Below are positions 6,273 to 47,020 of a DNA stretch of 64,000 nucleotides, in pieces. The stretch is from the IMG/VR virus record IMGVR_UViG_3300026097_000017, positions 16,074-80,073 of that record. One strand, given 5' to 3'. Under the pieces are notes generated by a model. That model did no database searches. It saw nothing but the letters and a program-made list of their open reading frames with translations, and was not told where the DNA came from. Origin of the DNA: a virus. The number at the start of each line of letters is the position of its first letter. Within the stretch, counting starts at the first letter, position 1. The position numbers were made by a program, and so were the translations under genes.

Positions 6273-6273
6273 T

Positions 6274-7011: not shown

Positions 7012-7556
7012 AGCAAATTTTCCTTAACAAATACCATACCTGTCTTTTCTAGCCAAGATTCCTTTCCTCGCTTTTTATCCATAGTAGAGTTCTCTAAAAC
7101 TTCATCCAATATTTTTTGCGAGAACACGAAACCATATTCTTTAAACTTCTCAATCCAATAATCACGCTCTTTGCAATTTACATGCAATGGACCAGGATCC
7201 ATGTTACAAGTGCAGATTACATAATTACATTTATCAAATATCTTCATATAATTATGCATATGCTCTTCAGGGACATGTTCTAGGAACTCTACTGACCAAG
7301 CCAAATCAAACGTCTTATCAGTTTCCCAAGTGCCAACAGTGAAGTCAAGTAAAACATCAGGATTTACCGTGTGATCACCATCAATACCGACTGCTTCTAA
7401 ACCGATTCTCTTGGCGTGACTGACTTGCCCTCCTGGACCACAACCAACATCCACCATAGATTTCACACCATAGTTTTTCATCATCCATTTCAAAGAACCA
7501 CGATCAAACCATGTCTTGTTACTGTGCCCACCTAAATGTGCTGCTAATTCACTCAT
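7008..7556 (-). CDS. SAM-dependent methyltransferase
   Basis: A 182-residue class I methyltransferase: motif I is MVDVGCGPGGQVSHAKR, motif II is VGIDGD and motif IV is LAWSVEFLEHVPEE. In this cluster it probably methylates a sugar or a polyprenyl/phospho-sugar intermediate. Start and stop codons overlap those of both neighbours, so it is translationally coupled. Nothing indicates DNA as substrate. Confidence 0.75.
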   Translation of the reverse strand: MSELAAHLGGHSNKTWFDRGSLKWMMKNYGVKSMVDVGCGPGGQVSHAKRIGLEAVGIDGDHTVNPDVLLDFTVGTWETDKTFDLAWSVEFLEHVPEEHMHNYMKIFDKCNYVICTCNMDPGPLHVNCKERDYWIEKFKEYGFVFSQKILDEVLENSTMDKKRGKESWLEKTGMVFVKENLL

Positions 7557-8581
7557 TAAAACTTACTCCAAAAATCGTCACTGTTTCTGGGAACATTAAT
7601 TGCTGTTGCTGACGGATAAGGATTGCTGCTAGAATAATCATTAATTAATATTCGTTCGCCATGAGGAACATCTAGCATCACATTAAAATTGACGAAACCG
7701 TTGTCGATCAAAAAGTCACGAACCTTCTCTTCAGTATATCCAGGTCTGCTAGATACAAACATAAAGTAAGCACCATCATCATGCATCTGCTTTAGTTTCT
7801 TAACCGCATTCGGAATACCAACTATATCTTCCTCAATACTGGGATAAAAATACTCTGACTGATGATTGATTAGCGTTCCATCTAAATCACAAAACACTAC
7901 TGGATATTTTCTTTTGAGATCGTGCCACTCTTTTGCCGTTCCCACATCAACGTAGTCATCAACCTCTACTGAAACAAATACTTCTGTTTCTAACAGTTTC
8001 TTGACAACATGCGAAACGAATCTTTCGTCATCCTGATTCAAAGACTCAAACGCATCACAGTATTCACCAGCGTTGTTGAAGCAGTAACCCCCTACAACAA
8101 TATGATTACTCACCACTGACTTCTCTACAATATTGGTGATGATATTTTGTTCGTTGGTGATTACGAAACTCTTTGCTGCAACATTCTGAACTTGTAAATT
8201 ATTTCTTAGATCTACAGTGCAAATATAGTTTGCTGCATTAACTCGATCAAACTTGAAATGTGCATCGCAATCTTGAATAAACAATGGTTCCTGATCATTA
8301 ATATTGATCGCTATCTGATAAACAGTATCGGCTGGACCTGTTGTTTCATGATCCAAGATAACTACCTGTACAGCGTCACCAAATGCTTTGTTCAGTGCGT
8401 GCTCAGCATTATAGTATTTTGCATGCTCTCTCAGTATCGGGATGAATATAGTATCCTCACCCAACCACTGTTCTGCTGCGTGCTCAATCATCATTCTACC
8501 GTCTGGCATACTGAGTAGATATTTTGGTCTAGTTCCTGGAAACCTTGAGGATTTTCCAGCGCATGGAATTATTACAGCCAT
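7556..8581 (-). CDS. Sugar nucleotidyltransferase / HAD phosphatase fusion
   Basis: A 341-residue bifunctional protein. Residues 1-225 form a nucleotidyltransferase of the sugar-1-phosphate type: MAVIIPCAGKSSRFPG with a downstream PKYLL, then the catalytic-site aspartates in IQDCDAHF. Residues 228-341 form a HAD-superfamily hydrolase with the nucleophile motif FCDLDGTL and later SSRPG. The two activities could make and trim an activated sugar. Downstream (next gene) is an APH-like kinase, so phosphorylation, activation and dephosphorylation of one metabolite are encoded together. Confidence 0.8.
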   Translation of the reverse strand: MAVIIPCAGKSSRFPGTRPKYLLSMPDGRMMIEHAAEQWLGEDTIFIPILREHAKYYNAEHALNKAFGDAVQVVILDHETTGPADTVYQIAININDQEPLFIQDCDAHFKFDRVNAANYICTVDLRNNLQVQNVAAKSFVITNEQNIITNIVEKSVVSNHIVVGGYCFNNAGEYCDAFESLNQDDERFVSHVVKKLLETEVFVSVEVDDYVDVGTAKEWHDLKRKYPVVFCDLDGTLINHQSEYFYPSIEEDIVGIPNAVKKLKQMHDDGAYFMFVSSRPGYTEEKVRDFLIDNGFVNFNVMLDVPHGERILINDYSSSNPYPSATAINVPRNSDDFWSKF

Positions 8582-9381
8582 ACTTTAGTCAACTCCCTGT
8601 TAATCAGAGCTTTATTCTCTTTTTCAATACAATATGCTCTTACTCTTAAAAGCATAAAACAATACAATGCCTGATTATTCATTTCACCATATTCTTCTTT
8701 CAATGATTTAGAAATTTTATCACAAACAATTTTATGATTGACAGTATTAGTTTTCTTTCTTAAGAACCAGTGTCCGTCTAAATCTTGTCTTAGCTTTGCT
8801 GCATCAAAAACCCAACTGTTAAATTCTGTTGGGTTAGGATCTATTAGATAAAACTTACCTTTCTTGTAAATGATATTTTCTAGCGTAAAATCACCATGGA
8901 TCGGTCCATATGGTAACACTTTGGGTAATCGCTCAATTAAATCAGCAGCCAACAATGGAGTCGGATCATCTTCATCAAACGCATTGAATAATCTGCGAAT
9001 CTTTTCTTCATACAGTTCACTGAAATCAAATGTCTCAGTTGCGTTTTCTTTAAAAGTATCTAACGACTTTTTCAAAAAAGCAATCAGCTTATCTAATTCT
9101 TCTATAGAAGCATACTCTATATAAGTGTACATGTCAATACCATCAATATGTTCCATGGTATAACAATCGTTAGAAACTTCATATATTTCAGGAGTATTAA
9201 ATCCTAGATGACGTAAATGATTTTGAAGTGCCGCAGCATCTTTTAATTTGTTGCTTCCGCATTTTTCAACAGCATATCTGCCGTCAGGATATTGTATTAG
9301 TTTCACGACGCACCCCGAGTGTCCAGTAAAATGCTTAAGAGTGTTGTAAAAGTTTGAGGACAGTTTCCGCAGTTTTGGCAT
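8572..9381 (-). CDS. Aminoglycoside/choline-type phosphotransferase
   Basis: A 269-residue kinase-fold protein. The catalytic loop is IHGDFTLENI and the metal-binding motif is LIDPN in YLIDPNPTEF, as in APH/choline kinase-like enzymes. A phosphate-transfer role on a sugar or choline-like compound is likely. The gene overlaps the 3' end of the GT61-like gene by 47 bases, unusually long for this genome, but no better internal start is visible. Confidence 0.75.
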   Translation of the reverse strand: MPKLRKLSSNFYNTLKHFTGHSGCVVKLIQYPDGRYAVEKCGSNKLKDAAALQNHLRHLGFNTPEIYEVSNDCYTMEHIDGIDMYTYIEYASIEELDKLIAFLKKSLDTFKENATETFDFSELYEEKIRRLFNAFDEDDPTPLLAADLIERLPKVLPYGPIHGDFTLENIIYKKGKFYLIDPNPTEFNSWVFDAAKLRQDLDGHWFLRKKTNTVNHKIVCDKISKSLKEEYGEMNNQALYCFMLLRVRAYCIEKENKALINRELTKVWL

Positions 9382-10435
9382 TTACAATCATGTTTCCATT
9401 TTTTGATTTAGGTCTTTCGCTCGATGGTGGTAAACTCTTTTCTGCCGCAATGGTATGCCAAGTAGCATTATTAACATCACCCAAGTTATTCCAACCACAC
9501 TCCTCATTCACTTCAAATGCATGATTGAAGTCAATCACGTTAGGACTATTCGCAAACAACAGATGCGTAAATCCTGCACCAGTCGGACCAACAATATTCT
9601 CTGCTCCTGCGAATAAACTGATTTTTTCACACAATGTAAGACTTGTTAAATTATAACTCTTAAAGTCATATTTTTCAAGCACTTTCATGAGATCATTTTC
9701 ATTTTCTATATGACGAGCATTAGCATCAGCTCTAGAAATGTAAATATTTTTAATACTGTACGCATACTCATCAGAAATCATATTCTGCTTCAGATATCTT
9801 GCTGCCCACTTAGCTGACTTTCCACGATTAGATATTGAAGGATGAGTGAACACGTGTATTTCAGGAGAACGAAATGAACAAGGGATTTCAATTTCAATCA
9901 TTCGCTCAAGTATGTCAGGGAAAAACTCAAGTGCCTCTTTCTGCCATGACTTTAGAGGATTGACTATGATCGGATAACTATTTTCTCTAAGTGCACGGAT
10001 GGTAGGGAGGTCTTCACAAAAGTAATGCCAATAGTGTCCAGTTGTGGTAAACCACTGATTCACAGGCTCATTGAAAATATGCTGCCGATAATCTTCTATT
10101 TTGATATTGAATGATCTAGAATAATTATCCCACATAGCTTGATTCGTTCGAAAGGCATTCGCCTGTTTACCAAATCCGCTGTTGTAAATTTTATCACCTT
10201 GAATTACTGACTGTAACCCACACTCATCAAATCCTGAAGTACCTGATACACCAATAGCATCTTCAAACTTGATGTCGACTAGAGGTGGAGTGGTGTATTC
10301 AAAAACCTGTTCAATACACTCATTATCTTTCCAAATATTTGCTGTGTATTTTCTATGTTCACTTGGTTCAATTACTTTTATTTTGTCTTGATTATGATTG
10401 ACGTAACCTTCGGTGTCACGCTCTCTGACTTCCAT
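9335..10435 (-). CDS. GT61-like glycosyltransferase
   Basis: A 366-residue protein with the C-terminal motif VGPTGAGFTHLLFANS, typical of the DUF563/GT61 family of glycosyltransferases. The upstream half contains HYWHYFCEDLP, also seen in that family. It begins the sugar cluster and overlaps the RuvC-like gene by 20 bases. Likely transfers a sugar to a phage structural protein or a host surface glycan; acceptor not known. Confidence 0.75.
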   Translation of the reverse strand: MEVRERDTEGYVNHNQDKIKVIEPSEHRKYTANIWKDNECIEQVFEYTTPPLVDIKFEDAIGVSGTSGFDECGLQSVIQGDKIYNSGFGKQANAFRTNQAMWDNYSRSFNIKIEDYRQHIFNEPVNQWFTTTGHYWHYFCEDLPTIRALRENSYPIIVNPLKSWQKEALEFFPDILERMIEIEIPCSFRSPEIHVFTHPSISNRGKSAKWAARYLKQNMISDEYAYSIKNIYISRADANARHIENENDLMKVLEKYDFKSYNLTSLTLCEKISLFAGAENIVGPTGAGFTHLLFANSPNVIDFNHAFEVNEECGWNNLGDVNNATWHTIAAEKSLPPSSERPKSKNGNMIVNAKTAETVLKLLQHS

Positions 10436-30970: not shown

Positions 30971-31109
30971 TTTCCTTAGATTCTTTGGACCATGAATAGG
31001 TTTCTGTCAAAACTAAAACCGTTCCTGCTATTAGTAGCCAAACATTATTATAAAAGAAACCTGACAAAAAAGCAAGGTGTCCGATAAAAACACCGAGTCT
31101 ATGACTCAT
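30957..31109 (-). CDS. 50-residue two-span membrane protein
   Basis: A short gene missed by length cut-offs. Its ATG (31109) lies within the last codons of uvsX and its TGA overlaps the first codons of the next gene, so it is wedged in by translational coupling on both sides. The product has two hydrophobic segments (GVFIGHLAFLSGFF; VWLLIAGTVLVLT) and a charged C-terminal tail (WSKESKENEDV). The early promoter at 31047-31075 lies inside its coding sequence. Function unknown. Confidence 0.65.
   Translation of the reverse strand: MSHRLGVFIGHLAFLSGFFYNNVWLLIAGTVLVLTETYSWSKESKENEDV
31047..31075 (-). promoter_or_regulatory. Early promoter (TTGCTT-17-TATAAT), inside a gene
   Basis: Minus strand TTGCTT at 31070-31075, 17-base spacer, perfect TATAAT at 31047-31052. 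Predicted start near 31040. It lies within the 50-residue membrane protein gene and would boost the 112-residue protein and helicase 41 independently of uvsX. Confidence 0.85.
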
Positions 31110-32151
31110 CTTCAACTACCTCAGGCTCAACTTCCTCATTACCATAAGTGAACTCAGCTTGAGCAGCTAGATCTAGTTGATGCAGTAAGTCTTCAGTAAA
31201 GTATTTTTCAGGATTCTTATAGATCTCTTTACCAAACACTTTCGTACCATCAGGCATTTCATATCGAGTAGAAACCTTCTTGATGATATCATATTTCTCA
31301 GCAAGTTCAAGTAACCCATAATACCGATCAAGTCCATTCGCATAAGACAGGCGAACCTCTACCTGACTATTTTCCTTTGTTAAACGCGACTTATGGAGTT
31401 TAGCTTTGATGATATTGCCTACGATATCTGTACCTTCTTTGTCCTTTTTCTTAGAAAGATAAACGATTGTAGAAGCAGTATATTTTAACCCTGAACCACC
31501 AGACATTTCTTTCATAGGAATATACGAACCGACCACATCATAAACATGGTTGGTTACAAGCAATGGTACTTGAATCTTAGCCAATGCTAGGTTAAGTACA
31601 CGGAACGTTGCCTTGAGTACCTGAGACTTGGTCATGTCTCTAGTTTCTTTACCGTCTGCAGTATCTTCAATCTCTTTAGTCGAAGATAACTGACCCAGAG
31701 AATCTAGCACCATCATCATTGGTTTGCGTGAATCTTCAGGCTGGTTTTTATACGTCTCGATGATTTTTAGCGCAGTATGACGAAACTTCTGAATTGTATC
31801 TGGTTCTGACACCGCAACTCTTGTAGTATCAATACCACGCGACTCCATCATTTCTTTAGTGACTGCAGCCTCAGTATCAAAATAAATGACACCCCCTTCA
31901 GGATTATCCTTTAGAAACTGTTGCATCACGCCAAGAACAAAGAATGTTTTACCAGTCGCTGATTCACCAGCAAATGTTGTAACTTTATTATTAGGAACAC
32001 CACCATAGATTGTTCCTGACAACGCAGCATTTAGGATATATGAACCTGTATCAATATACCCACTAAACTCACCAGACGATTTGCCATCTGCTGCAATATT
32101 AGTATCTTCATCTTTAATTTGTGTGACAATATCACGGAAAAAATCTGACAT
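31099..32151 (-). CDS. uvsX: Recombinase UvsX (RecA-like)
   Basis: A 350-residue strand-exchange protein (T4 UvsX: 391). Walker A is GESATGKTFF, with a Walker B region MMVLDSLGQLSS and VTNHVYD. With UvsY and gp32 it drives recombination-dependent replication. The start codon overlaps the stop of the TAGT-like glycosyltransferase gene (TAATG after a seven-T run), so it is coupled to it. The C-terminus is acidic (EVEPEVVEDES). Confidence 0.93.
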   Translation of the reverse strand: MSDFFRDIVTQIKDEDTNIAADGKSSGEFSGYIDTGSYILNAALSGTIYGGVPNNKVTTFAGESATGKTFFVLGVMQQFLKDNPEGGVIYFDTEAAVTKEMMESRGIDTTRVAVSEPDTIQKFRHTALKIIETYKNQPEDSRKPMMMVLDSLGQLSSTKEIEDTADGKETRDMTKSQVLKATFRVLNLALAKIQVPLLVTNHVYDVVGSYIPMKEMSGGSGLKYTASTIVYLSKKKDKEGTDIVGNIIKAKLHKSRLTKENSQVEVRLSYANGLDRYYGLLELAEKYDIIKKVSTRYEMPDGTKVFGKEIYKNPEKYFTEDLLHQLDLAAQAEFTYGNEEVEPEVVEDES

Positions 32152-32939
32152 TAAAAAAATCCTTCAAGTGTTGCTGTTTCTTCCTGACGACGATCTTTGA
32201 GCCGCAGTTCCGCATGCCCTGTAGTTTCTCTAATATACATCGTACAAAGTTCAGGAAACATTTTGGCGATCCTACTGATTGAGTCATACACATACTCTTT
32301 GGTACGCACCTCTTGAAGACCACCTTCTTCTTTGTAATAATTACTTTTCACAGTATAGTTATCTAATCGGCAAAGCACGTCATTCTTGACATACTGACGG
32401 AGACTGTACTCATAGTCCTCACCATGATTTGTCACTCTTGCCAAATAATCATCATGCTCTACGATCACACCGAACATCGATGCAATCACATAGCAGAGTT
32501 TAGTGTAAACACGATCTTTCATAAAGAACGCATTTGAAGCTGCATAGATGCCGAACGTTTTAGCACCAACCTGCTCAGCTTCAGTGAACCCTCTTATTAT
32601 AATCTCTTTTTCCAAATTGTCAATAGGTTCCAGCTTTTTATCATTCTTTCTTTGAACTTCTTGAACGTCATCATCAAACATCATCAAATATGTGCCTTCT
32701 GGATAATACCGTTCAATCCAGTTTCTTTGGGCTCCGATTGTAGGAACACCCTTTACAATATTTTGCCCATAAGGATTATCTTTTAGCGCATTTGAATATG
32801 TTTCAAACTCTTTATCATCAGCCACAAATACAGTGACACGCTCTGGATCAATATTATGGTGTTCAAATACTTTGAACGTCTTTTCTTGAATTGTTTTCGT
32901 ACGCTTATAGGATGGCACTGCAATTTTATAATCAATCAT
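32151..32939 (-). CDS. TET-associated-type glycosyltransferase (TAGT-like)
   Basis: A 262-residue protein. The start IAVPSYKRTKTIQ, then VFVADDKEF, GAQRNWI (69-75) and the metal-binding DDD (89-91) are the pattern of GT-A glycosyltransferases that accompany phage TET/JBP dioxygenases (the TAGT group). It would glycosylate the hydroxymethylated base made by the enzyme encoded immediately upstream, with a TAATG overlap. The protein ends TLEGFF, nearly identical to the ends of the dioxygenase and DNA polymerase, a likely sliding-clamp-binding peptide. Family assignment is from motif memory. Confidence 0.75.
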   Translation of the reverse strand: MIDYKIAVPSYKRTKTIQEKTFKVFEHHNIDPERVTVFVADDKEFETYSNALKDNPYGQNIVKGVPTIGAQRNWIERYYPEGTYLMMFDDDVQEVQRKNDKKLEPIDNLEKEIIIRGFTEAEQVGAKTFGIYAASNAFFMKDRVYTKLCYVIASMFGVIVEHDDYLARVTNHGEDYEYSLRQYVKNDVLCRLDNYTVKSNYYKEEGGLQEVRTKEYVYDSISRIAKMFPELCTMYIRETTGHAELRLKDRRQEETATLEGFF

Positions 32940-34369
32940 TAAAAAAATCCTTCTAGACTCGCTTTTTCTTCAACTGCTTCAGGATGATATTTTGCTAGTG
33001 TATCACGTCCACCGTGATGCTCTAGATATTGATACCATTCTTTAGAATCCCACATTCCTGGACTCACACCGTTCCAGTATGGACGCCATAGTACATGGTG
33101 CTCATTCAAACGACGATCATCAACAAACTGTCTTCGCAGTTTTTCATAATCATAAGAACCAAGCTGTAACATATCCTCGCGGAAATAAAACACCAAAGAC
33201 ATACGGAGGAAATCATCTTCACCTGAATCAGGTGCTTCAATCGGAGTGTTCGCATGAATCACTCGCATATTATCAATCAGCAACAAATCCCCTGGACGAA
33301 CATTGATTGCCGCACGAACTTCAGGAGCAACCAAATAACCACCTTTCCAACTCTTGCCTTCTTTAGTGACAACAGTCAGATTAGAGTATCCCTCATTCAA
33401 AGAACCTGCATCACGATGACTTGCCATTCGTGCATTACGATCTTTAGTTGTAGTATTTACAGTAATTGTAGTCAGCGTAGTATCTTCGCCTATCAGGAAT
33501 TTGTTGTCAATCGAGTCGGCACATTTTTTCTGCAACGCATAACGTTCAGGGAGCATCCGAGCAAACTCTTTATCAAGTTTCCTAGCAAATGGATAGCACT
33601 TTTCAAACTTCTCTAAGTTGTGTTCAGTGTAAGAAGTTGCTCGCCCATAAGGAATCCGAGGATATCTACCATAATACCCAGCGATACCTGACCAAATGGG
33701 AGTCGCATAAGAGGTTGCCGAGATCATAGTCTTAGCAATTTTCAAAGCATACTTAGCTGCGTCATCTACTGACATTTCAGCGAGTCGTTTCATCGCCTCA
33801 TCGAAAAAGCCTGTGTAGTTTTCAAACTCGGCTTCTACCTTCGTACGCAACCAAACACCGCCACGTGTTTCATACTTTTCAGTTTTATGACGCTCTACAA
33901 TTTCTTCTATCGGATCAGAGCCATCGATATTTTGAGGTGAGCCATCAATGTAATAATCAAGAATATCTTGTTGAAAAGGTGTCACCCAATCACGATTACC
34001 TGACTGCTCTGATCTTGGTCCAGCGGCAAGTCCTCGGTTATTAGATTCAACTGCTGCATCAAACAATCCTTCATACGCACCTTTCTGTTCTTCTTCGGTG
34101 AATACGTTTTTACGGAACTTGAATGCAATTTGCTGTTCACCTAGACAACCAATACATTGCCCATTACAATCTGTAGATTTGACTAAATCACAATCAGGTG
34201 GAAGATAAAAATCTGCATCATTGTCGATTAGAATATCGTAATCATTCTCGTCTACATATTTACCGAGAAGATCTTCTTTGTTGTCAGCGAACAAGGCAAT
34301 ATAAACGTCTTGACCTTCGTCACCTTTATACTTCTGCCAAGATCTGCCGCCAATGGTTACTGTTTCCAT
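32939..34369 (-). CDS. TET/JBP-like 2OG-Fe(II) DNA dioxygenase
   Basis: A 476-residue protein. The C-terminal part carries the 2-oxoglutarate dioxygenase core: HRD (H318/D320) in RMASHRDAGS, then WKGGYLVAPE, the strand RPGDLLLID, the distal histidine (H372, RVIHANTP) and a 2OG-binding Arg (R389, FLRMSLVF). The order fits the TET/JBP family, which oxidises the methyl group of 5-methylcytosine or thymine in DNA. An N-terminal Cys cluster (60, 68, 72, 75) may bind metal. It ends SLEGFF. The start at 34369 has GGAG upstream and follows its own early promoter. The oxidised base is not known. Confidence 0.75.
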   Translation of the reverse strand: METVTIGGRSWQKYKGDEGQDVYIALFADNKEDLLGKYVDENDYDILIDNDADFYLPPDCDLVKSTDCNGQCIGCLGEQQIAFKFRKNVFTEEEQKGAYEGLFDAAVESNNRGLAAGPRSEQSGNRDWVTPFQQDILDYYIDGSPQNIDGSDPIEEIVERHKTEKYETRGGVWLRTKVEAEFENYTGFFDEAMKRLAEMSVDDAAKYALKIAKTMISATSYATPIWSGIAGYYGRYPRIPYGRATSYTEHNLEKFEKCYPFARKLDKEFARMLPERYALQKKCADSIDNKFLIGEDTTLTTITVNTTTKDRNARMASHRDAGSLNEGYSNLTVVTKEGKSWKGGYLVAPEVRAAINVRPGDLLLIDNMRVIHANTPIEAPDSGEDDFLRMSLVFYFREDMLQLGSYDYEKLRRQFVDDRRLNEHHVLWRPYWNGVSPGMWDSKEWYQYLEHHGGRDTLAKYHPEAVEEKASLEGFF

Positions 34370-34392
34370 ATAAGTTCTCCATGTATGCAATC

Positions 34393-34421
34393 ATTATAAC
34401 TTATTTACACAAACTTATCAA
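34393..34421 (-). promoter_or_regulatory. Early promoter (TTGATA-17-TATAAT)
   Basis: Minus strand TTGATA at 34416-34421, 17-base spacer, perfect TATAAT at 34393-34398. Predicted start near 34386, a 17-base leader for the dioxygenase. The promoter overlaps the end of the AT-hook membrane protein gene and serves the dioxygenase, TAGT-like and uvsX genes. Confidence 0.85.
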
Positions 34422-35241
34422 GCAGTTTTTTCTTTTCTACTTTAGGTGGACGTCCACGCTTTTTAGGTTTGTGTTGTTCAATCAACTGTTGAGTTCTCAC
34501 TTTTTTACGCTGTTCCTTCAGCGATATACTAGCAGCTATCACAAGCAGCACTGCTAATGGATCAAATACAAAAATAATAATCAGAATGACAAATCGTACT
34601 GCCTTCTCTAAAACTTGCTGATCAGGATTGTCACCAAATATCAATTCTGCAATGAACGCAAGAGGACCGACTTCCGCTTTAAAAGCTGACACTTGAAGCT
34701 GAATCTGTGCCAACTCGTCTTGAAGCGAGATGATCTTATTGGACGCTTGATTGATGGATTCCTGGATTTTCTCACGTTCCTCAGTCTGACTTTCTCTTGC
34801 CTCAAGTCCCTTAGAAACTGCCCCAAGCTCGATATATCTTTGTAATGCATCATCAAGCTGTTCCAGAATGGCTTCATTCCGCTCGATTTCCCGATTCTCT
34901 CTCTGAATTCTGGTTTCAATCTGTGTCGCTTTGATGGTAGACTCATTTAAACCTGCTCCCTGATCAATATGTGCTTTCGATAAAAATCCAAAGATACCCA
35001 TTGATGTGATAAACATCAACAGCACAACTGCACCAGTGAGATAATATTTCAATGCTCTAGGTGCAACTTCCCAGTTTTGATGCAGCCATGCCGCAGTCAA
35101 AAGTTTACCTGCTTCCAACACGATACCCATGATCACAATCGCAGTAAAACTCGCAGCGAATATAGCTGTCAATCCAATGATTGAGTAATACGCAGCTACA
35201 GTAGCAATAGCAATCGCTGTAATTAAAGTTGCTATAACCAT
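34405..35241 (-). CDS. AT-hook membrane protein with coiled coil
   Basis: A 278-residue protein with an unusual layout: three N-terminal membrane segments (about 3-22, 26-50, 66-88), a soluble coiled coil (100-190), one more membrane segment (about 215-240), then a basic tail containing KKRGRPPK, a classic AT-hook that inserts into the minor groove of A/T-rich DNA. The tail would face the cytoplasm. It sits between DNA polymerase and the base-modification genes, so it may tether phage DNA or the replisome to the membrane. Function unproven. Confidence 0.7.
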   Translation of the reverse strand: MVIATLITAIAIATVAAYYSIIGLTAIFAASFTAIVIMGIVLEAGKLLTAAWLHQNWEVAPRALKYYLTGAVVLLMFITSMGIFGFLSKAHIDQGAGLNESTIKATQIETRIQRENREIERNEAILEQLDDALQRYIELGAVSKGLEARESQTEEREKIQESINQASNKIISLQDELAQIQLQVSAFKAEVGPLAFIAELIFGDNPDQQVLEKAVRFVILIIIFVFDPLAVLLVIAASISLKEQRKKVRTQQLIEQHKPKKRGRPPKVEKKKLLDKFV

Positions 35242-35543
35242 TAACTTTCGCTTCTTGTGATTGCTAAGATATCCTCGATCTTCTCTTCAATAATTTGTTT
35301 ACGTCCTGGCCAATAAATGTATTCTTTGTCAGATGTGTTTAGCAGATTGACTAACAAAGGCATTATCATTTGTTCAACCATTTGTAGTTTTTCGGCAGCA
35401 GATCTTTCTAAAGTATTGCGAACGCTGTCAACAACTTCTTCAATCTTGGTGTCAGTAGCAGCATTGTATTCTGCTTCACTAACTGCACTAAAACCAAAAT
35501 CGTTATCATTTGACAAATATTCCTGTGGTATTTTAATAGCCAT
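35241..35543 (-). CDS. 100-residue hypothetical protein next to gp43
   Basis: A helical, acidic protein (MAIKIPQEYLSNDNDFGF...). The ATG at 35543 overlaps the stop of gp43 (TAATG), favouring this start over a longer frame. It ends overlapping the AT-hook gene in the same way. The neighbourhood suggests a replication-associated accessory, but there is no motif. Confidence 0.65.
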   Translation of the reverse strand: MAIKIPQEYLSNDNDFGFSAVSEAEYNAATDTKIEEVVDSVRNTLERSAAEKLQMVEQMIMPLLVNLLNTSDKEYIYWPGRKQIIEEKIEDILAITRSES

Positions 35544-38017
35544 TAGAAAAAGCTCTCCAGTGTACTTTGTTTCTCTACATCCCAACCAATCTTAGAGGTG
35601 ATCACCTTTAGTGGTTCTAGGAATGACTTTTCGAATTGTGTATCATAATCAATATACTTATTTAAGTCAAGCTCTTCTGGCATGTTAGACAGAATAGAGA
35701 TGACATTTTCACCGATACTATTTGGCGTTTTCAAATAACAGAATTTAATTTTCTCGCCTTCTTGGATCGGCTGATATTTTTTAGTCAATCCTTTTTTGTC
35801 AAGAAGATGATTAAACAGCAACGCACCTCTAACATGAATCGGTGTTCCTGATGAGTAGATATCTGAAGAATCAGCATACTTTGCTAATCCTTTAACTCCT
35901 CTCGGGAAAGCCACATCTTCAAACGGCATCTTTTTAAACTTCTCACGGCTATCGGTAACAAACTGATGAAGTAATGATTCGTCGCCCTCCATAATAAGTT
36001 GCAGTGCTTCTTTAATCATTTCACGGCAAGCATATGGAGTTGAAGATTTTACAGCCTCAATACCCATCATCTTGAGTTTCGGTTCATTATACCTCACACC
36101 CTCAGAATCATGAACATTCAGAATGTATCTTTTCTTAGCAGTCCAGATACCTTTATCAGCAATAACTTCTCGAGCCATCACCATCTTGTTCTGATAGGCT
36201 CCCATATAATTCGCAAGCTCTTCATAGGACTCAGTAATAAATTTCTCAAATCTTTCTTCACAAACAGTATTCAAAAAATCGACTGGACTTTTAGGATTGA
36301 ACTTTTTGACCAACTCATCCATGCGGACATAGATAGAATCAGTATCAATCGCAATCACATAATCTTCATCAGTGCCCAGCAACTTGTTCATGTACTGGTT
36401 TACTTTCTTTTCAATCCATCTGATTGAGAGTTGTCCTGAGATGGTGATTGCTTCTCCGAGTTTGACGTCGAAGAATCTGAAGTATTTGTTTCCGATTGCT
36501 CCATAGGCTGAGTTGAGGGAGATTTTTTTTGCCATCTGGATGTTATGGTATTTAGATATTGAGTTGCGTAGGCGAATCTTCTCCTTCTCATCAGCTGTAC
36601 CTTTCTTGCTTTCCAGTTCCTTCTGCGCATTGATCATTTCCTTCTTATAGAAAACACGATCATTGTACATCTTCTGCATCAATTCAGGCAAGAACCCTTG
36701 GAAGTCCTTGCGGAAATAGTGACCATTTGCCGCCAAGCAGTATTCAGTTTCATTAGGATATTGTTCAGTCAAAAGTTTATTAACAGAGGTGTCAATATGT
36801 TTGCCTTCTACCAAAGTATCAGGCGAAATATTATACTGCATCATTAAGTGAGGATACAGACTATTTAGGTCAAAGGAGACAACCCAGTCGTGCATTCCGA
36901 CTTGCGGTTCTTTTACATAAGCACCTTCAATCTGACCATCTTTATCCCGATCCTCCATTTGAGGAACAACAACATTTTTAGAAAGTAGATGGTTATGAAT
37001 GATTGTGTCCCACATCCGAACCTGTGTCATCACATCATTTAAATTCACCTTTGCGTCATACGCAAGAGCAAGCGCAAGTTCAATCAGCTTCAGCTTATCG
37101 TCTAGTTTCTGAACCAACTCAACGTCTTTGATGTTGTATTCAATAAACTTCTGATAGTCTTCTTTGTATAACTGGTGAAGAGAGTTGTATTCAGAATAAT
37201 CAATCTTCTTTTCACCGAGCTCTACGAAAGCGATATTATCCAACCGATATGATTCTTGCTGAGTATAAGTAAACTTCTTATACATTTCAAGATAATCCAA
37301 ACTAACGATGCCGCAAAGAACATACGCATAGTTCTGCCTGTTCATCAGTCTCACGATGCGCTCTTCAACCTGCCCCCAAGGAGAAAGTTTTTTAGCCATG
37401 CGTTCATCAAACTTCTTTTCAATGCGACGATACAGATAAGGAATATCAAAGAACTGAGTGTTCCAGCCTGTGATGATATCGACATCCATTTTCTGCCACA
37501 TATCAAGGAATTTGAGTAACAGATCATTCTCATTATTACAACGAATGTAACGGACATCTTCCCTATGCTGCTTGTATTCGCCTATACCGAGAACCCAATA
37601 AACTCCTTTAAAGTATATCGTGATTGCAGTGATCGGCTCAGCAACGTCCGCAGGATCAGGGAAACCAGACTCAGAGCCAACCTCAATATCAATATTGGCG
37701 ACTCTAATTAAGTTTACATCGTAATCAACTTTAGGATATTGTTCATTGATAAAACAATATTCATATTTGTTAGACCCATAGATTTCAAAGTTTTGTATAT
37801 CACCATATTTGGCAATAAATTCTTTGGCATCTGAAATGGTGCCTTGTTTGACAGGTTCAACAGGAATACCTTTAACTGTTTTGAAGTTAGAAGGTTTGTT
37901 GGTCGGGATGTAGAGTGTTGGTGAGTAAGGAACACGTTCGTGGAACCGCTTTCCGTTGCGATAACCACGAACGTAGATTTTATCACCTCTACGAAGAAAG
38001 TTCGTATAAAATTCCAT
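35543..38017 (-). CDS. 43: DNA polymerase (gp43, family B)
   Basis: An 824-residue family B polymerase (T4: 898). The exonuclease motif is ANIDIEV (D110, E112). Polymerase motifs are DLNSLYPHLM (motif A), LNSAYGAIGN (motif B) and AIDTDSIYV (motif C). It ends TLESFF, the position where T4 gp43 binds the gp45 clamp. The start MEFYTNFLRRGD agrees with the T4 N-terminus (MKEFYIS). The early promoter places its transcription start at about the base before the ATG, so the mRNA may be leaderless. Confidence 0.95.
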   Translation of the reverse strand: MEFYTNFLRRGDKIYVRGYRNGKRFHERVPYSPTLYIPTNKPSNFKTVKGIPVEPVKQGTISDAKEFIAKYGDIQNFEIYGSNKYEYCFINEQYPKVDYDVNLIRVANIDIEVGSESGFPDPADVAEPITAITIYFKGVYWVLGIGEYKQHREDVRYIRCNNENDLLLKFLDMWQKMDVDIITGWNTQFFDIPYLYRRIEKKFDERMAKKLSPWGQVEERIVRLMNRQNYAYVLCGIVSLDYLEMYKKFTYTQQESYRLDNIAFVELGEKKIDYSEYNSLHQLYKEDYQKFIEYNIKDVELVQKLDDKLKLIELALALAYDAKVNLNDVMTQVRMWDTIIHNHLLSKNVVVPQMEDRDKDGQIEGAYVKEPQVGMHDWVVSFDLNSLYPHLMMQYNISPDTLVEGKHIDTSVNKLLTEQYPNETEYCLAANGHYFRKDFQGFLPELMQKMYNDRVFYKKEMINAQKELESKKGTADEKEKIRLRNSISKYHNIQMAKKISLNSAYGAIGNKYFRFFDVKLGEAITISGQLSIRWIEKKVNQYMNKLLGTDEDYVIAIDTDSIYVRMDELVKKFNPKSPVDFLNTVCEERFEKFITESYEELANYMGAYQNKMVMAREVIADKGIWTAKKRYILNVHDSEGVRYNEPKLKMMGIEAVKSSTPYACREMIKEALQLIMEGDESLLHQFVTDSREKFKKMPFEDVAFPRGVKGLAKYADSSDIYSSGTPIHVRGALLFNHLLDKKGLTKKYQPIQEGEKIKFCYLKTPNSIGENVISILSNMPEELDLNKYIDYDTQFEKSFLEPLKVITSKIGWDVEKQSTLESFF

Positions 38018-38058: not shown

Positions 38059-38493
38059 TTAACTATTTTCTTCCCTGTATGCATCCAAAGTCTTCTTGAA
38101 TTTATTTGCGTGAGATCTTTCTGCTTTTGCTAGAGTCTCAAACCAATCAGCAATTTCATCATAACCTTCATCACGAGCAGTCTTAGCCATTCCTGGATAC
38201 ATGTCTGTATACTCATGAGTTTCACCTGCAATAGCAGACTCAAGAGCCTCTTCAACAGTTTTAGCTGGCAATCCAGTTTCAGGATCTCCTGCTCCACCGT
38301 CGATGAGATATTCCATATGTCCATGCGCATGACCAGTTTCGCCTTCCGCAGTATTACGGAAAACGTTCGCTACATCTGGTGCACCTTGTACGTCAGCTTC
38401 ATTAGCAAAGTACAGGTAGCGACGGTTGGCTTTAGACTCACCTGCGAATGCATCTTTCAATGCTTGTTCAGTTTTAGTACCTTTCAAACTCAT
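38059..38493 (-). CDS. Rubrerythrin-type diiron protein
   Basis: A 144-residue four-helix ferritin-like protein. All seven expected diiron ligands are in place: E19, E52-x-x-H55, E91, E94, E125-x-x-H128, in the order of bacterial rubrerythrins. There is no C-terminal rubredoxin domain, so it would need an external electron donor. Rubrerythrins reduce hydrogen peroxide. Protection of phage iron enzymes (NrdB, the dioxygenase) or of the cell during infection is a plausible reason for its presence. It lies between the endopeptidase and polymerase genes. Confidence 0.88.
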   Translation of the reverse strand: MSLKGTKTEQALKDAFAGESKANRRYLYFANEADVQGAPDVANVFRNTAEGETGHAHGHMEYLIDGGAGDPETGLPAKTVEEALESAIAGETHEYTDMYPGMAKTARDEGYDEIADWFETLAKAERSHANKFKKTLDAYREENS

Positions 38494-39036: not shown

Positions 39037-39468
39037 CTATTTGATTTCTACAGTTTTGGGTTTCTTAGCTTCTGGAATAATACGCTCCAAAGCAATCTTT
39101 AGCATGCCGTTGAGCATTTCCGCATTTTGAACCTCGACAGCATCGTTCAAATTGAACGTGCGAGTAAATGGACGGAAAGCCAGACCTTGATATAAAAATT
39201 CGTTTTTGTCATCCTGCGCAGCATTACCTTTGACAGTTAGCTTATCGCCTGCTACATTGATTTCAATATCAGTCTTTCCGAAACCAGCAACAGCCATTTC
39301 AATGACATATGTGTTTTCATCAGTTTTCTTGATATTGTATGGTGGATAGTTGGGAATGTTTTTAGACATGTTGTCATGAAACTCATTGAGTTTGTTAAAA
39401 ACATCGTCATAACCAATTAGAAACTTATCAAGATCTTTATGCGTAAATGTTGGAAGTAATGTTGTCAT
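39037..39468 (-). CDS. Small heat-shock protein (Hsp20)
   Basis: A 143-residue alpha-crystallin family chaperone. The central domain runs from about residue 40 (NIKKTDENTYVIEMAVAGF) through the strand GDKLTVKG to FRPFTRTF, with a C-terminal MLKIALERIIPE. It should hold unfolded proteins, perhaps during capsid assembly. Hsp20 genes are common in marine T4-like phages. It is flanked by a CCTAAATA late core upstream and a strong hairpin downstream, so it forms a separate unit. Confidence 0.9.
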   Translation of the reverse strand: MTTLLPTFTHKDLDKFLIGYDDVFNKLNEFHDNMSKNIPNYPPYNIKKTDENTYVIEMAVAGFGKTDIEINVAGDKLTVKGNAAQDDKNEFLYQGLAFRPFTRTFNLNDAVEVQNAEMLNGMLKIALERIIPEAKKPKTVEIK

Positions 39469-39771: not shown

Positions 39772-40176
39772 TTACTTTTTCTTGCCAATATTGTACTTGG
39801 CAACTAAATTCCACTCTTCACGTTCCTTGTAAGGAAGGATTTTAATTTGTGAGAGTGGGCTCGTTGGTGTAGCCGTTTTTGACGGATCCACCAAATCAAT
39901 CAACTCCCATTCGGCGAGAAGATTGATTACAGTATTCCGTCTGGCCATGTCATCTTCATTTGGCCAGTTAGTTGGTTTACCATCGAGAGCAAACAGTTCT
40001 TTAAAATGAACTATAAAATATCTGCCTTGCTTGTGTAGAATATGACAAGATTGAAATAATGTCTTATCTTTCTTTGAAGCAATGCCGATGCGAGTCAAAG
40101 TCTCTCGCACTTTCAAAAAGTCATCCTGTTCTTTTAATTTTATCTCAATCATTGAAGACATATCAAAGATTGTCAT
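39772..40176 (-). CDS. regA: Translational repressor RegA
   Basis: A 134-residue protein strongly resembling T4 RegA (122 residues): MIEIKLKEQDDFLKVRETLT, FQSCHILHKQGRYFIVHFKE and the C-terminal YNIGKKK. It binds the start regions of early mRNAs and blocks their translation. It has an eight-residue N-terminal extension if the start at 40176 is used; AGGTGG before that ATG and the ATGA overlap with gp62 favour it, but 40152 would match T4 exactly. Confidence 0.93.
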   Translation of the reverse strand: MTIFDMSSMIEIKLKEQDDFLKVRETLTRIGIASKKDKTLFQSCHILHKQGRYFIVHFKELFALDGKPTNWPNEDDMARRNTVINLLAEWELIDLVDPSKTATPTSPLSQIKILPYKEREEWNLVAKYNIGKKK

Positions 40177-40547
40177 TTCATTCCACCTTTATCAAGTTTT
40201 GTTTTTATTAATTTTATTTGTTCTTTGGTGAGAACTTTCTCAGCGTCACATGCCTTAGTGTAAGAATAATTATAATATTCCATAAGCATTTCTACTGTGG
40301 CAGACTTACTTTTTTTATGCCATCCGAAACGTTTTCTTTTACGAACAGTATTTAGTAAAAACTCATATTGTAATTTATTGTCAATATGGTGGTAGAAATT
40401 CATCTCATTGCCATGATGCACAGTATCAATATGCATTGACATGGCACGATTAACAAGGAAGGAAGAATATTCTTTCTCCGCTTGCTTGTCAGTCATCAAA
40501 TCCTTTTTACTTTCATTGATAGAATTTACAAAATCAAATGGATTCAT
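40173..40547 (-). CDS. 62: Clamp loader small subunit (gp62-like)
   Basis: A 124-residue protein, shorter than T4 gp62 (187), assigned mainly by position between gp44 and regA (the T4 order is 45-44-62-regA-43) and by similarity in style to marine-phage gp62 (MNPFDFVNSINESKKDL). The start at 40547 overlaps the stop of the small membrane protein gene as ATGA. It should complete the 44/62 clamp loader that opens the gp45 ring. Confidence 0.7.
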   Translation of the reverse strand: MNPFDFVNSINESKKDLMTDKQAEKEYSSFLVNRAMSMHIDTVHHGNEMNFYHHIDNKLQYEFLLNTVRKRKRFGWHKKSKSATVEMLMEYYNYSYTKACDAEKVLTKEQIKLIKTKLDKGGMK

Positions 40548-40714
40548 AATCCCAATAATCCCCAACCGTGATTGGCTACAGCATTTAGGATAATAAAAAT
40601 CCCAACAAAAAGCTCGAACACCACAATAATAGTACGAACGATTGCAACTCTGTCAGCTTTACTGTCATCATCATATGCCTTAGATCCTAATGCTTTAGCC
40701 CAAATATTCCACAT
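40544..40714 (-). CDS. 56-residue membrane protein within the clamp operon
   Basis: A short protein (MWNIWAKALGSKAYDDD...) with one membrane segment (about 27-50, IIVVFELFVGIFIILNAV). The ATG at 40714 overlaps the gp44 stop (TAATG) and its own stop overlaps the gp62 start. It separates gp44 from gp62, which are adjacent in T4. Function unknown. Confidence 0.65.
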   Translation of the reverse strand: MWNIWAKALGSKAYDDDSKADRVAIVRTIIVVFELFVGIFIILNAVANHGWGLLGL

Positions 40715-41652
40715 TATTGAAACGCACATTCTGACATAATTTCAGTCAGACATGCTACGAGATTAACTTCTTGATCCGCAACGAATGCAGACTTGTAAGA
40801 ATACTCAGCGACTATCAAGACCAAAGATGGTACTGATTCAGGTTTCATGTAATCAGTTGCGGAGTCATATAGTTTACGATACATCATGACAGGATCATTG
40901 TCAATATTTTCCACAACCCATTTACGAACTTCTTTGAAGTTCCTTTCTTTCATGTGTTGTATTAGACTTTTGATAGATACATCTACTAAATTTACTAGAA
41001 TACCTGTGTCTATCTTTCCTGACACTGAATACCGCTGTAATTCATTCAGCACCCGACGGAAGTCAGGGAAGTGCTTCATGATTACCTGAGCAACAACCTT
41101 TTCTTCATACTCAATATGTTCTTGAGAAAGAATCCCATGAATACGCTTCATCAGCTGAGCTGCTAATTTTGGCTTTTCATTGTTAGGAATCTTGAACTCT
41201 ATTACTGAGCACCTTGAATGGAGAGGAGATATAATGCGGTTAGCAAAATTACAAGTAAGTATAAACCCACAATTATTACTAAACTCCTCCATAAAGTTGC
41301 GAAGAGCAGGCTGAGTAGATTGGGGATTGAGATAATCAGCCTCATCAAGGATGACATACTTACGACCACCATCAAAACTGACAGTGCTAGCAAAATTACG
41401 AATGTCATTCCGAAGAGTATCGATGTTTCCATTCATTGAACCATTGATAATAATATAATCACAACCGAGTTCTTCTAGCATGGCGCGAGCAACTGTAGTT
41501 TTGCCCATACCTGCTCCACCTGTGAGAAGAAGGTTAGGAACGTTTCCCTGTTTAATGAACTCTTTAAACGTTTCCTTCATCTCAGGTGAGAGAATCGTAT
41601 CATCCACTGTGCGTGGGCGATACTTCTCTACCCATAAAAAATCATCTCTCAT
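40714..41652 (-). CDS. 44: Clamp loader large subunit (gp44)
   Basis: A 312-residue AAA+ ATPase (T4: 319). Walker A is GGAGMGKTT, Walker B ILDEADYL and the arginine-finger SRC motif is HSRCSVIEF. Four copies with one gp62 load the gp45 clamp using ATP. Normal length, all key residues present. It follows gp45 by 17 bases. Confidence 0.95.
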   Translation of the reverse strand: MRDDFLWVEKYRPRTVDDTILSPEMKETFKEFIKQGNVPNLLLTGGAGMGKTTVARAMLEELGCDYIIINGSMNGNIDTLRNDIRNFASTVSFDGGRKYVILDEADYLNPQSTQPALRNFMEEFSNNCGFILTCNFANRIISPLHSRCSVIEFKIPNNEKPKLAAQLMKRIHGILSQEHIEYEEKVVAQVIMKHFPDFRRVLNELQRYSVSGKIDTGILVNLVDVSIKSLIQHMKERNFKEVRKWVVENIDNDPVMMYRKLYDSATDYMKPESVPSLVLIVAEYSYKSAFVADQEVNLVACLTEIMSECAFQ

Positions 41653-41669
41653 AATATAGACCTCAAAAA

Positions 41670-42341
41670 TTAAGAATTATACTGGGAATTAGATTCTAAA
41701 GCAATCCAGTATTCTAAATTTGCATCAACTGATTTAAAATGCGAGATACCCTTTGAAGAGATCTGTACATTATAATCACCGTTGATCAGTTTGAGGTTTT
41801 CAGTTTTAAAGATCATGCGGAACTCAGCATCAGTTTCACCAACTGTCATGGAGAATGTGTCACTTGAGTCATTCTTAACATCAAGAGCAGTCAACTTGAT
41901 AGTTTCACCATCACCCACTACAGCGATTTCAGGCAAACTCATCACACCACAAGCACGTTGTACTTTCTGCAAAATATCATGACTCAGCTGGAACTGAATC
42001 TCTGCCTCAGGGAAGTTGGGACTCTTCTCTGGTGGCTTAGTGATGATAGATTCATCAGCATAACCATAGCGAGTCTTTTGCCCATTGTTATCTACAATCT
42101 CTAGACTAGTGTCATTCACATTCACTTCTGGCTCTTCGAACAAGTCAAGAACAGAAATGAAACGATTTAGTTCGTAGATACCAAAGTTGCGTTCAAAGTT
42201 CTCATCAACCTGCGCTTTGGCTAGAATATTTTTTCTAGGAGAAACTGTTGCCAGCGTATTTCCTTCTTTGAACATCATACTAGAATTAATAGTAGAAAAG
42301 TTCTTCAGGATGTTAATTGTATTTTCACTAATTTTCATCAT
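41670..42341 (-). CDS. 45: Sliding clamp (gp45)
   Basis: A 223-residue clamp subunit (T4: 228), recognisable from its opening (MKISENTINILKNFSTIN) and position before gp44-gp62-regA. Three copies form the ring that holds gp43 on DNA and, in T4, activates late transcription through gp55 and gp33. Here it is the probable partner of the LE(G/S)FF tails of polymerase, dioxygenase and glycosyltransferase. The start may be the second ATG (42338). Confidence 0.92.
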   Translation of the reverse strand: MMKISENTINILKNFSTINSSMMFKEGNTLATVSPRKNILAKAQVDENFERNFGIYELNRFISVLDLFEEPEVNVNDTSLEIVDNNGQKTRYGYADESIITKPPEKSPNFPEAEIQFQLSHDILQKVQRACGVMSLPEIAVVGDGETIKLTALDVKNDSSDTFSMTVGETDAEFRMIFKTENLKLINGDYNVQISSKGISHFKSVDANLEYWIALESNSQYNS

Positions 42342-45426: not shown

Positions 45427-46469
45427 TCGAGATCTAGTGCCTCATGGTATAAGTTTATCAATAATCCTTCTAACTTTTTCTGATTAGAAGTTTGCACACC
45501 GCTGACATATTTCTTCAAAATAGTCATCGTATCTTCAGCTTCATTTACCAAATCATCATCATTGGTCTGATCAATATTCATATGGTCGTCCACCACTGCA
45601 ACATCATAAACTCCACTACGATATAACTTATCAAGGAAAATGTCAAACGCTGTGGGATCTTTTTTTGTTCGGACGATAACTTTCACAAAACACCCTTCAT
45701 ACAAATCGTATTCATGCTTTTGTGGTTTGCTGTCATCATAAATGATTTTGTAGAATAACCGATGAGGATTACGAACTTCCACCAAGTCTCCTGTATCAGT
45801 GTCAAAAATATGAAACCCACGCCAGTCATTATAGTCTGACCATGTCATTTCATAAGGAGAGCCAAGATAAGTGAGATTGTCTCGAGACGATTTGTGATGA
45901 AAATGACCAGAAAATACTCTGTCGAATTTACTGAATACATTAGTTTGTAGTCCATGATGATTTACCGATCCTCTATACATTTCAAACCCTTGCACTTCTA
46001 AATGACCAAATGCATACTTAGCATCAGTCTTGTTCAAAAGCTCAAAAGTTTCTTCTTCATTTTCAGGGCAGATCCAAGGAATCATCATCAATTTAGTATT
46101 GTCAATCGTGACTTCCTGTGGATCCATTACTAGATTAAAACCATACTCAGATTTAGAATACAGTTCACGCAAAGCATTTACATGTATCGTGTTCTTGTAA
46201 TATGAGTCATGATTTCCCACAATAAAATGCGCTTCGATACCACGTTCATGGATCGGAAGCATCATATCATCTTCTAAATTTCTGGCAGTAACATAATTGA
46301 TTTGTTTTCTTTTGTCAACTAGATCACCAAGATGAATTAAATGTTTAATATTATGCTTGTCAAGATATGGGAAAAAGAACTCATGGTAGAACTTCTTCAT
46401 ATGATTCGCAAACACAATATTATCATTGCGCACACCAAAGTGTGTATCAGTAATTAAAGCAACTTTCAC
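45423..46469 (-). CDS. 47: Recombination nuclease subunit gp47 (Mre11/SbcD-like)
   Basis: A 348-residue phosphoesterase (T4: 339) with the metal-binding motifs DTHFGV, LGDLVD, GNHDSY and SGHFHHKS. It is the catalytic partner of gp46. Start and stop overlap both neighbours by four bases (ATGA), forming the 55-47-46 operon. Confidence 0.95.
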   Translation of the reverse strand: MKVALITDTHFGVRNDNIVFANHMKKFYHEFFFPYLDKHNIKHLIHLGDLVDKRKQINYVTARNLEDDMMLPIHERGIEAHFIVGNHDSYYKNTIHVNALRELYSKSEYGFNLVMDPQEVTIDNTKLMMIPWICPENEEETFELLNKTDAKYAFGHLEVQGFEMYRGSVNHHGLQTNVFSKFDRVFSGHFHHKSSRDNLTYLGSPYEMTWSDYNDWRGFHIFDTDTGDLVEVRNPHRLFYKIIYDDSKPQKHEYDLYEGCFVKVIVRTKKDPTAFDIFLDKLYRSGVYDVAVVDDHMNIDQTNDDDLVNEAEDTMTILKKYVSGVQTSNQKKLEGLLINLYHEALDLE

Positions 46470-47020
46470 TCTGCGTCATCCTCGATGAAGTTTTCTATTC
46501 CTACTTTCTTTTTCGCCTTTTTACGCTTTTCAAGATTAGACTCAAATGTTACCATAAAGTCATCCATATATTCCTGAGCATAATCATTATGAAATGGGCG
46601 ATTCATTTCTGGAGTTGCTTCTTCAGCCTGAACCATCTCCATAATTGTAATATTCTTAGTGGAACTGTATTTGACGTAGAGCTGTTTCTTTTCTTTTTGA
46701 ATCCTGCGTAAAAATGCATAATAGATTATCTGCGTGAAATACGCAAAAGGATTACTACTTTTGTCAGGATTAAAATTATTGATGTATTGAACACAGTTCT
46801 CCACACCATCAGAGATCATATCTTCTCTAAATTGATAGCTTATGAAGTTTGGCTTGGTGGATAATCTTCGAGCGATCATCAAAAAACATTCACCCACATA
46901 ATTGGGAATGATTGGTTTTTCCTTGCCTTCTTTTTCAGCCTGTTTTACTTTTTCTCGATACTCGATGAGTGAGTTGAGAAACTCTTTGTTGTTGATATAA
47001 TGAGTTGATTTTCGTGCCAC
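46466..47020 (-). CDS. 55: Late sigma factor gp55
   Basis: A 184-residue protein (T4: 185), the sigma factor that directs host RNA polymerase to TATAAATA late promoters. Recognised by its position and by the central region resembling sigma-70 region 2 (AYFTQIIYYAFLRRIQKEK). It starts with GTG at 47020. Near the C-terminus it has VGIENFIEDD, similar to the clamp-binding tails of other proteins here; in T4 the gp55 C-terminus contacts gp45. This links late transcription to replication. Confidence 0.85.
   Translation of the reverse strand: MARKSTHYINNKEFLNSLIEYREKVKQAEKEGKEKPIIPNYVGECFLMIARRLSTKPNFISYQFREDMISDGVENCVQYINNFNPDKSSNPFAYFTQIIYYAFLRRIQKEKKQLYVKYSSTKNITIMEMVQAEEATPEMNRPFHNDYAQEYMDDFMVTFESNLEKRKKAKKKVGIENFIEDDAE

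Follow-up and report, generated by a model that had tools for sequence, protein, structure and literature searches.

The DNA considered here is a stretch of 64,000 nucleotides (positions 16,074 to 80,073, hereafter the window) of the 80,073-bp virus record IMGVR_UViG_3300026097_000017, a contig that is itself partial. Its minus strand carries a T4-like replication block, in which gp41, UvsX, a TET-associated glycosyltransferase (TAGT), a TET/JBP-type DNA dioxygenase (DIOX), two small open reading frames (ORFs) and the DNA polymerase are followed by RegA, gp62, gp44, gp45, gp46/47 and gp55. The polymerase, DIOX and TAGT end in nearly the same short peptide (TLESFF, SLEGFF and TLEGFF, respectively), which resembles the C-terminal tails that bind the gp45 sliding clamp in T4 and is the subject of this analysis. 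These endings are exactly those read in the initial annotation of the window, which was also right in calling the three proteins otherwise unrelated, as they belong to the distinct Pfam families DNA_pol_B, Tet_JBP and TAGT. The features concerned are the following:

35543..38017, minus strand: gp43-type family B DNA polymerase, 824 amino acids, C-terminus QSTLESFF (Pfam DNA_pol_B 1e-27, exo1 5e-26; phrog_262)
35546..35569, minus strand: clamp-type tail of the polymerase, QSTLESFF, with the motif kept in all 21 unique relatives
32939..34390, minus strand: TET/JBP-type 2-oxoglutarate (2OG)-Fe(II) DNA dioxygenase (DIOX), 483 amino acids (Pfam Tet_JBP 2e-14)
32942..32965, minus strand: clamp-type tail of DIOX, KASLEGFF, with L479 in 36/36, F482 in 34/36 and F483 in 33/36 homologues
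32151..32939, minus strand: TAGT (GT-A/GT2 fold), 262 amino acids, the next gene after DIOX (PF20691 1e-16)
32154..32177, minus strand: clamp-type tail of TAGT, TATLEGFF, tailed in 22/27 relatives
41670..42341, minus strand: gp45 sliding clamp, PCNA-like, the presumed receptor (PF09116 2e-14; phrog_223 4e-78)
46466..47020, minus strand: gp55 late sigma factor, with a degenerate clamp motif, GIENFIEDDAE, at 46469-46501 (phrog_234 8e-59)

In DIOX, the HxD...H motif and the 2OG-binding arginine (H325, D327, H379, R396) are invariant in homologues, and the structure closest to its AlphaFold2 model, which has a mean predicted local distance difference test score (pLDDT) of 86, is that of Naegleria TET1 (NgTET1) bound to 5-methylcytosine DNA; as its family suggests, it would oxidise a 5-methylpyrimidine in DNA. 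TAGT scores 61.9 bits against the PF20691 cut-off of 27.5, contains an Asp-rich motif with D89 and D90 invariant among relatives, and matches TarS/TarP/RmlT (GT-A/GT2) in structure comparison.

The strict form of the motif is found at three C-termini among the 120 ORFs of the 80-kb contig, where 0.045 are expected from shuffled C-termini. In a sample of 4,453 unique ORFs, drawn from IMG/VR loci with DIOX or TAGT relatives and from loci with an amino acid:DNA transferase (ADDT), it closes 21/21 polymerases, 80/87 DIOX and 22/27 TAGT, compared with 21 of 3950 other unlabelled ORFs (0.5%) and with no gp46 (0/42), gp45 (0/35), gp44 (0/23), UvsX (0/15) or gp41 (0/14), counts which are descriptive because the motif was drawn up after examples had been seen, so that the motif-free ranking given below is the more independent test. 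It is also present on 28 of 60 ADDT, most of the others having a relaxed GLExF version, and on 26 of 40 members of one GNAT family; the GNAT, GT-B, kinase and HNH references and the ADDT of locus L008 were chosen as tailed, so that their rates are biased upward. The tail is thus kept in homologues of all three proteins and is rare in unrelated ones, as the initial annotation had expected. The DIOX and TAGT that lack the motif comprise one copy with a frameshift (L031), ORFs that are partial or divergent (L051, L303) and those of L062-L067, contigs in which no gp45 was detected; all five untailed TAGT relatives are in contigs of this last kind. A generic hydrophobic C-terminus was considered as an explanation and rejected, given the motif on only 0.5% of the other ORFs.

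Across the 36 DIOX homologues, which are 44-73% identical, Leu479 is invariant and Phe482 and Phe483 are Phe in 34 and 33, respectively, whereas the linker positions 474-477 have an entropy of about 2.7 bits and the distance from W452 to the tail varies from 17 to 28 residues. The tail Leu is encoded by all six codons across homologues, which indicates selection on the protein level. Both the DIOX and the TAGT tails are predicted to be disordered, AlphaFold giving low pLDDT for the former and values <50 for TAGT residues 252-262; a tip that is conserved yet unfolded has the appearance of a short linear binding motif. The tail is independent of the fold, and its linker is divergent, variable in length and disordered, as is that of a sliding-clamp-binding motif (SCBM); in T4 gp55 the clamp-binding epitope has been found to be built in the same way, with a conserved tip and a free, variable linker (PMC2988020). 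In L038, a near-identical relative of the window phage (polymerase 97% and TAGT 95% identical), DIOX is a different allele, about 50% identical, still ending STLEDFFA. That the tail might be part of the enzyme fold was rejected, both from its low pLDDT and from the existence of untailed homologues.

In the motif-free test, every ORF was ranked by the similarity of its C-terminus to that of its own genome's polymerase. TAGT and DIOX take ranks 2 and 3 of 113 in the window phage, and DIOX and TAGT ranks 2 and 3 of 186 in the 155-kb contig G025. The three 5-hydroxymethyldeoxyuridine (5-hmdU) enzymes of Klebsiella phage Magnus are the very ORFs whose C-termini come nearest to the polymerase tail (ranks 2-4 of 203), those of Vi01 rank 3-5 of 209, and the modification enzymes of D506 and C48C1 rank 2, 3 and 5 of 202 and 2-3 of 188, respectively, the chance probability of each rank set being 7e-7 to 2e-4. 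The same test gave weaker ranks for the PhiW-14 HMUDK_hel (38) and for the DIOX (19) and ADDT (42) of Cr30, and the polymerase of DLP6 is absent from the ranking owing to a longer antisense ORF in the overlap filter, its tail being taken from annotation. When polymerases were shuffled among nine lineages p was 2e-4, and among 14 genomes 5e-5; since related lineages are not independent (Magnus and Vi01, as well as D506 and K469, are close relatives in the sample), the value for nine lineages is to be preferred.

The class of tail varies with the lineage and follows that of the polymerase, as can be read from named phages, whose enzymes were picked by Pfam family and not by tail. In Salmonella phage Vi01 the polymerase ends VNLLSMMGKKG, ADDT VNLMSLLKR, the HMUD2 kinase VSLLGLMRKA and HMUDK_hel VNLLDRLKKPE, and in Vibrio phage D506 the corresponding ends are ARKLW, TRKLW, TKKLW and TKRLW; in these VNLLxMM and KLW lineages the tail is hydrophobic or basic, not acidic. 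Similarly, PhiW-14 has KLGAFFV on the polymerase and GLGSFFR on an ADDT-family protein, Cygsa01 has SVMDFFS on the polymerase, DLMGFFQ on ADDT and NVFDLF and SVLDLF on kinase-family proteins, and Cr30 has DLSSLFD on the polymerase and DLSKLF on TAGT. As for other enzymes, a GT-B-type glycosyltransferase in the TAGT slot is tailed (TLDSFFG in L005, TLEDFFG in L010), and so are the ADDT of L008 (GLEEFF), one P-loop kinase (L009, DLSSFF), GNATs in such neighbourhoods, the T2/T6-type TAGT of L036 (SLESFF), the TAGT of Stenotrophomonas phage DLP6 (DLSSFFN) and the Dam-type adenine methylase of phage C48C1 (TLDAFFG). The set of tailed modification enzymes, taken at the outset to be DIOX and TAGT, is therefore much wider and includes the named phages Vi01, PhiW-14 and Magnus; a tail limited to the three genes of the window was rejected, since other enzymes in the neighbourhoods and in named phages are tailed.

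In genomes of about 200 genes, modification enzymes come out near the top when ORFs are ranked by the polymerase tail alone, which can therefore nominate clamp clients not yet known. Small proteins of unknown family match their own polymerase tail as well as the modification enzymes do in Vi01 (L202:10855-11067, 70 amino acids), D506 (L195:16591-16890, 99 amino acids) and Cygsa01 (L222:11899-12210, 103 amino acids), and, judged by their C-termini, are candidate new clients. In Delftia phage PhiW-14, alongside the polymerase (KLGAFFV), a DUF4326 protein (L213:3170-3487) ends GLGAFFT and a PD-(D/E)XK nuclease (L210:6996-7856) GLGGFFA, and in G025 a 109-amino-acid protein just upstream of DIOX (L129:12119-12448) ends GSLEEFMV. 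Endonucleases of HNH and GIY-YIG type with the same kind of tail (L018:8887-9375, L279:11952-12617, L320:8376-8945) are perhaps homing endonucleases riding on the clamp. In the window, the 278-amino-acid protein at 34405-35241, between the polymerase and DIOX, ends KLLDKFV, the fourth-best polymerase-tail match in the contig, and is apparently a membrane protein with a coiled coil.

The presumed receptor is gp45. The C-termini of T4 gp43, gp55 and gp33 bind gp45 and are interchangeable (PMC2988020, PMC7892883), and RB69 gp45 has been crystallised together with the polymerase C-terminal peptide (PMC2988020); the window gp45 can be aligned from end to end with that of RB69 (PDB 1b77/1b8h, 1e-19). 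By detection of phrog_223, gp45 is present in 10/10 complete named phages of the tailed group and in 0/7 complete controls with untailed homologues (M6, S-CBWM1, Serendipitous, Altadena, Lilmac1015, P12024L, HTVC112P), among which the TAGT of S-CBWM1 ends HELEDLLP, a doubtful resemblance to the tail. The TAGT of L062/L064, 66% identical to that of the window, ends LRLKDMR/LRLKDTR, at the very point from which the window protein continues with RQEETATLEGFF, and no gp45 was detected in these two contigs. As for gp55, the GIENFI pointed out in the initial annotation is present, five residues from the end and not six, and it is a weak match to the polymerase tail; gp55 of relatives has a clearer motif (SDLTEFLVN, SDLMDFFLDDEE, STLDKFIADE).

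The clamp-binding motif of bacterial beta-clamp clients is of the QL[SD]LF type, thus sharing the short linear hook logic, with a different peptide and receptor. In gp45-less phages of the P12024L type, TAGT ends NQLEIF, NQTQLF or NQTTLF and the adjoining DNA methylase QQTLF (Nonlabens phage P12024L, L140:3595-4353 and 4355-4990; L262:3001-3759; L263:3-248). These TAGT and methylase tails, the only place where sequences resembling the beta-clamp motif were seen, fit Q-x-x-[LI]-F and are possibly a hook to the host clamp.

Taken together, these data make it highly likely that the tails are a T4-type SCBM by which DIOX, TAGT and the polymerase are tethered to gp45, the two enzymes acting on fresh DNA behind the fork. 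According to this model, the C-terminal SCBM on its flexible linker would attach all three proteins to DNA-loaded gp45, and DIOX and TAGT would use the same gp45 site as the polymerase tail and so work near the fork, on newly made double-stranded DNA. There DIOX would hydroxylate a pyrimidine 5-methyl group, which TAGT would then glycosylate. The core of the initial annotation, namely that the base-modifying enzymes ride on the clamp, is strongly supported by conservation, by co-occurrence with gp45, by the lack of tails on homologues in phages without gp45 and by the match of tails within each lineage, from which we infer binding, even if the arrangement is not universal.

Several observations weigh against this model or its generality. 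The expected restriction of tails to gp45 phages holds for the complete genomes, while some contigs with LF/FL tails (G022, G032-034, G044) showed no gp45 in the part covered, these being fragments. The window gp55 tail ranks only 45 of 113 ORFs in its match to the polymerase tail. Furthermore, the tail is absent on the DIOX and ADDT of Cr30, on the TAGT of Muldoon and on most P-loop kinases beside DIOX/ADDT, so that some pathway steps go untagged. In T4, the alpha-glucosyltransferase (AGT, GT-B fold) binds gp45 (Sommer 2004), as a pull-down confirmed (PMC13216743), though it ends SSFCFKEQFDIITK and has no SLDFLF-type tail; the beta-glucosyltransferase (BGT) is untailed as well and does not bind gp45. 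Alpha/beta glucosylation levels were attributed in that pull-down study to expression or promoter strength and to activity, with clamp binding not the chief factor (PMC13216743).

That last result would also suit enzymes that bind the clamp but act out of step with the fork, either completing modification later, at clamps left on DNA, or using the clamp as a general tool-belt shared with late transcription and repair: gp45 is also the activator of T4 late transcription (PMC2988020), alpha-glucosylation in T4 is set by promoter strength and activity rather than by clamp binding (PMC13216743), and tails on GNATs, HNH endonucleases and a Dam methylase point to a wider range of clients. In most genomes, however, the tails are nearer to the polymerase tail than the gp55 tail is, a fact which bears on the binding site and not directly on timing, and we regard uncoupling from the fork as unlikely. 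A different partner, such as the clamp loader, the single-stranded-DNA-binding protein or the helicase, is much less probable still; sequence alone does not identify the partner and several such hubs occur in the same phages, but the similar tails of the T4 polymerase and gp55 bind gp45, and tail presence tracks gp45 in complete genomes. Finally, it is scarcely credible that the likeness of the tails is a functionless by-product of copying of 3' ends between neighbouring genes. The last 21 nucleotides of the adjacent TAGT and DIOX genes are indeed identical at 17/21 positions, but the polymerase shares only 13 and 11 of 21 with TAGT and DIOX, all six Leu codons are in use across homologues, the motif, unlike the linker, is retained at about 50% protein divergence, and in Vi01 and Magnus it lies on non-adjacent genes.

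TET enzymes act on DNA and not on free nucleotides. The simplest route would be the conversion of thymine to hydroxymethyluracil in DNA by DIOX, followed by the addition of a sugar by TAGT or, in relatives, by ADDT/GNAT chemistry. PF00145 (C5-cytosine methyltransferase) is absent from 16 records, including complete C48C1, DLP6 and Cr30, the 155-kb and 152-kb contigs and the window contig, which is partial; PF00303 (thymidylate-synthase type) is absent from the partial window contig, G025, G027, C48C1 and DLP6, and is found in T4, Vi01, PhiW-14, D506 and Cr30. Searches for C5-methylase and dCMP-hydroxymethylase routes thus gave nothing in the TET phages C48C1, DLP6, G025 and G027, nor in the window contig. 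Because neither gene type was found, and because the family of ADDT acts on derivatives of thymine, the modified base is probably thymine, as a base-J-like glycosyl-hydroxymethyluracil, rather than cytosine. In GenBank, the TET/JBP-type dioxygenases of DLP6 (L118:19968-21314), Cr30 (L119:19995-21323) and S-CBWM1 (L120:3729-5165) are labelled 'SNF2 DNA repair protein', and that of S-CBWM1 was confirmed as Tet_JBP.

The closest known counterparts are the SCBMs of T4/RB69 gp43, gp55 and gp33 (and DNA ligase), likewise short hydrophobic-acidic peptides, C-terminal in gp43, gp55 and gp33, on unrelated proteins in phages that encode gp45; the equivalent tail of T4 gp43 is KASLDFLFG. Here, by contrast, they are on DNA base-modifying enzymes, often at several steps of a pathway, and their class varies between lineages. 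The T4 alpha-glucosyltransferase, too, is a phage enzyme that glycosylates DNA and associates physically with gp45, a precedent missed in the initial annotation, which was aware of no described clamp-tethered system of base hypermodification; it differs in being a single enzyme, without tail, and in that hydroxymethylcytosine is made as a nucleotide before replication. In the 5-hmdU pathways of ViI (Vi01), PhiW-14 and M6, enzymes act on hydroxymethylpyrimidines already in DNA (PMC6449724). The pathway enzymes of Vi01 and PhiW-14 have the polymerase-like tails found here, whereas M6 is without gp45 and without tails; Vi01 and PhiW-14 carry a homologue of thymidylate synthase, by which hmdU is presumably made at the nucleotide level, unlike the TET phages C48C1, DLP6, G025 and G027. 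Kinetoplastid base J, made by JBP hydroxylase and glycosyltransferase, shares base hydroxylation in DNA by the TET/JBP family with subsequent glycosylation; the base in the window phage is a prediction, and no clamp tag on JBP was found in the literature searched.

Among phages with a T4-type replisome, clamp-tagged hypermodification enzymes thus seem to be a design that recurs. The T4 clamp-binding tail and post-replicative base hypermodification are each known, and their combination may be new, with the T4 alpha-glucosyltransferase as one loose precedent; searches of the open-licence literature turned up no description of modification enzymes with such tails, which is weak evidence of novelty. 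More tentatively, hypermodification may generally be organised on the clamp, the enzymes of each lineage, whatever their fold, bearing their own clamp's tag, which evolves with the polymerase tail, and some clamp-less phages hooking to the host beta clamp; we put the chance of this somewhat below even. The finding bears on how phages manage to modify their target bases ahead of attack by host nucleases: a clamp tether, if true, would build the modifying enzymes into the replisome and account for the coverage and timing of modification. The tags are portable, specific to each lineage and of predictive value, and simple tests offer themselves in Vi01 and PhiW-14, well-studied phages with known modified bases.

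The block includes, among its other genes:

40714..41652, minus strand: gp44 clamp loader large subunit (Gp44_lid 1e-14, AAA 1e-14)
40173..40565, minus strand: gp62 clamp loader small subunit (phrog_225 3e-39)
31099-32151: UvsX, without tail, inside the span named in the initial annotation

Rubrerythrin-like (38059-38493) and Hsp20-like (39037-39468) proteins, called from reading the translations alone, are also within the replication block. Elsewhere in the window, at 4495-10435, GT9, GT8 and GT61 glycosyltransferases, a nucleotidyltransferase, an APH-type phosphotransferase and a methyltransferase are clustered, and may serve in sugar supply for TAGT or in surface-glycan modification.

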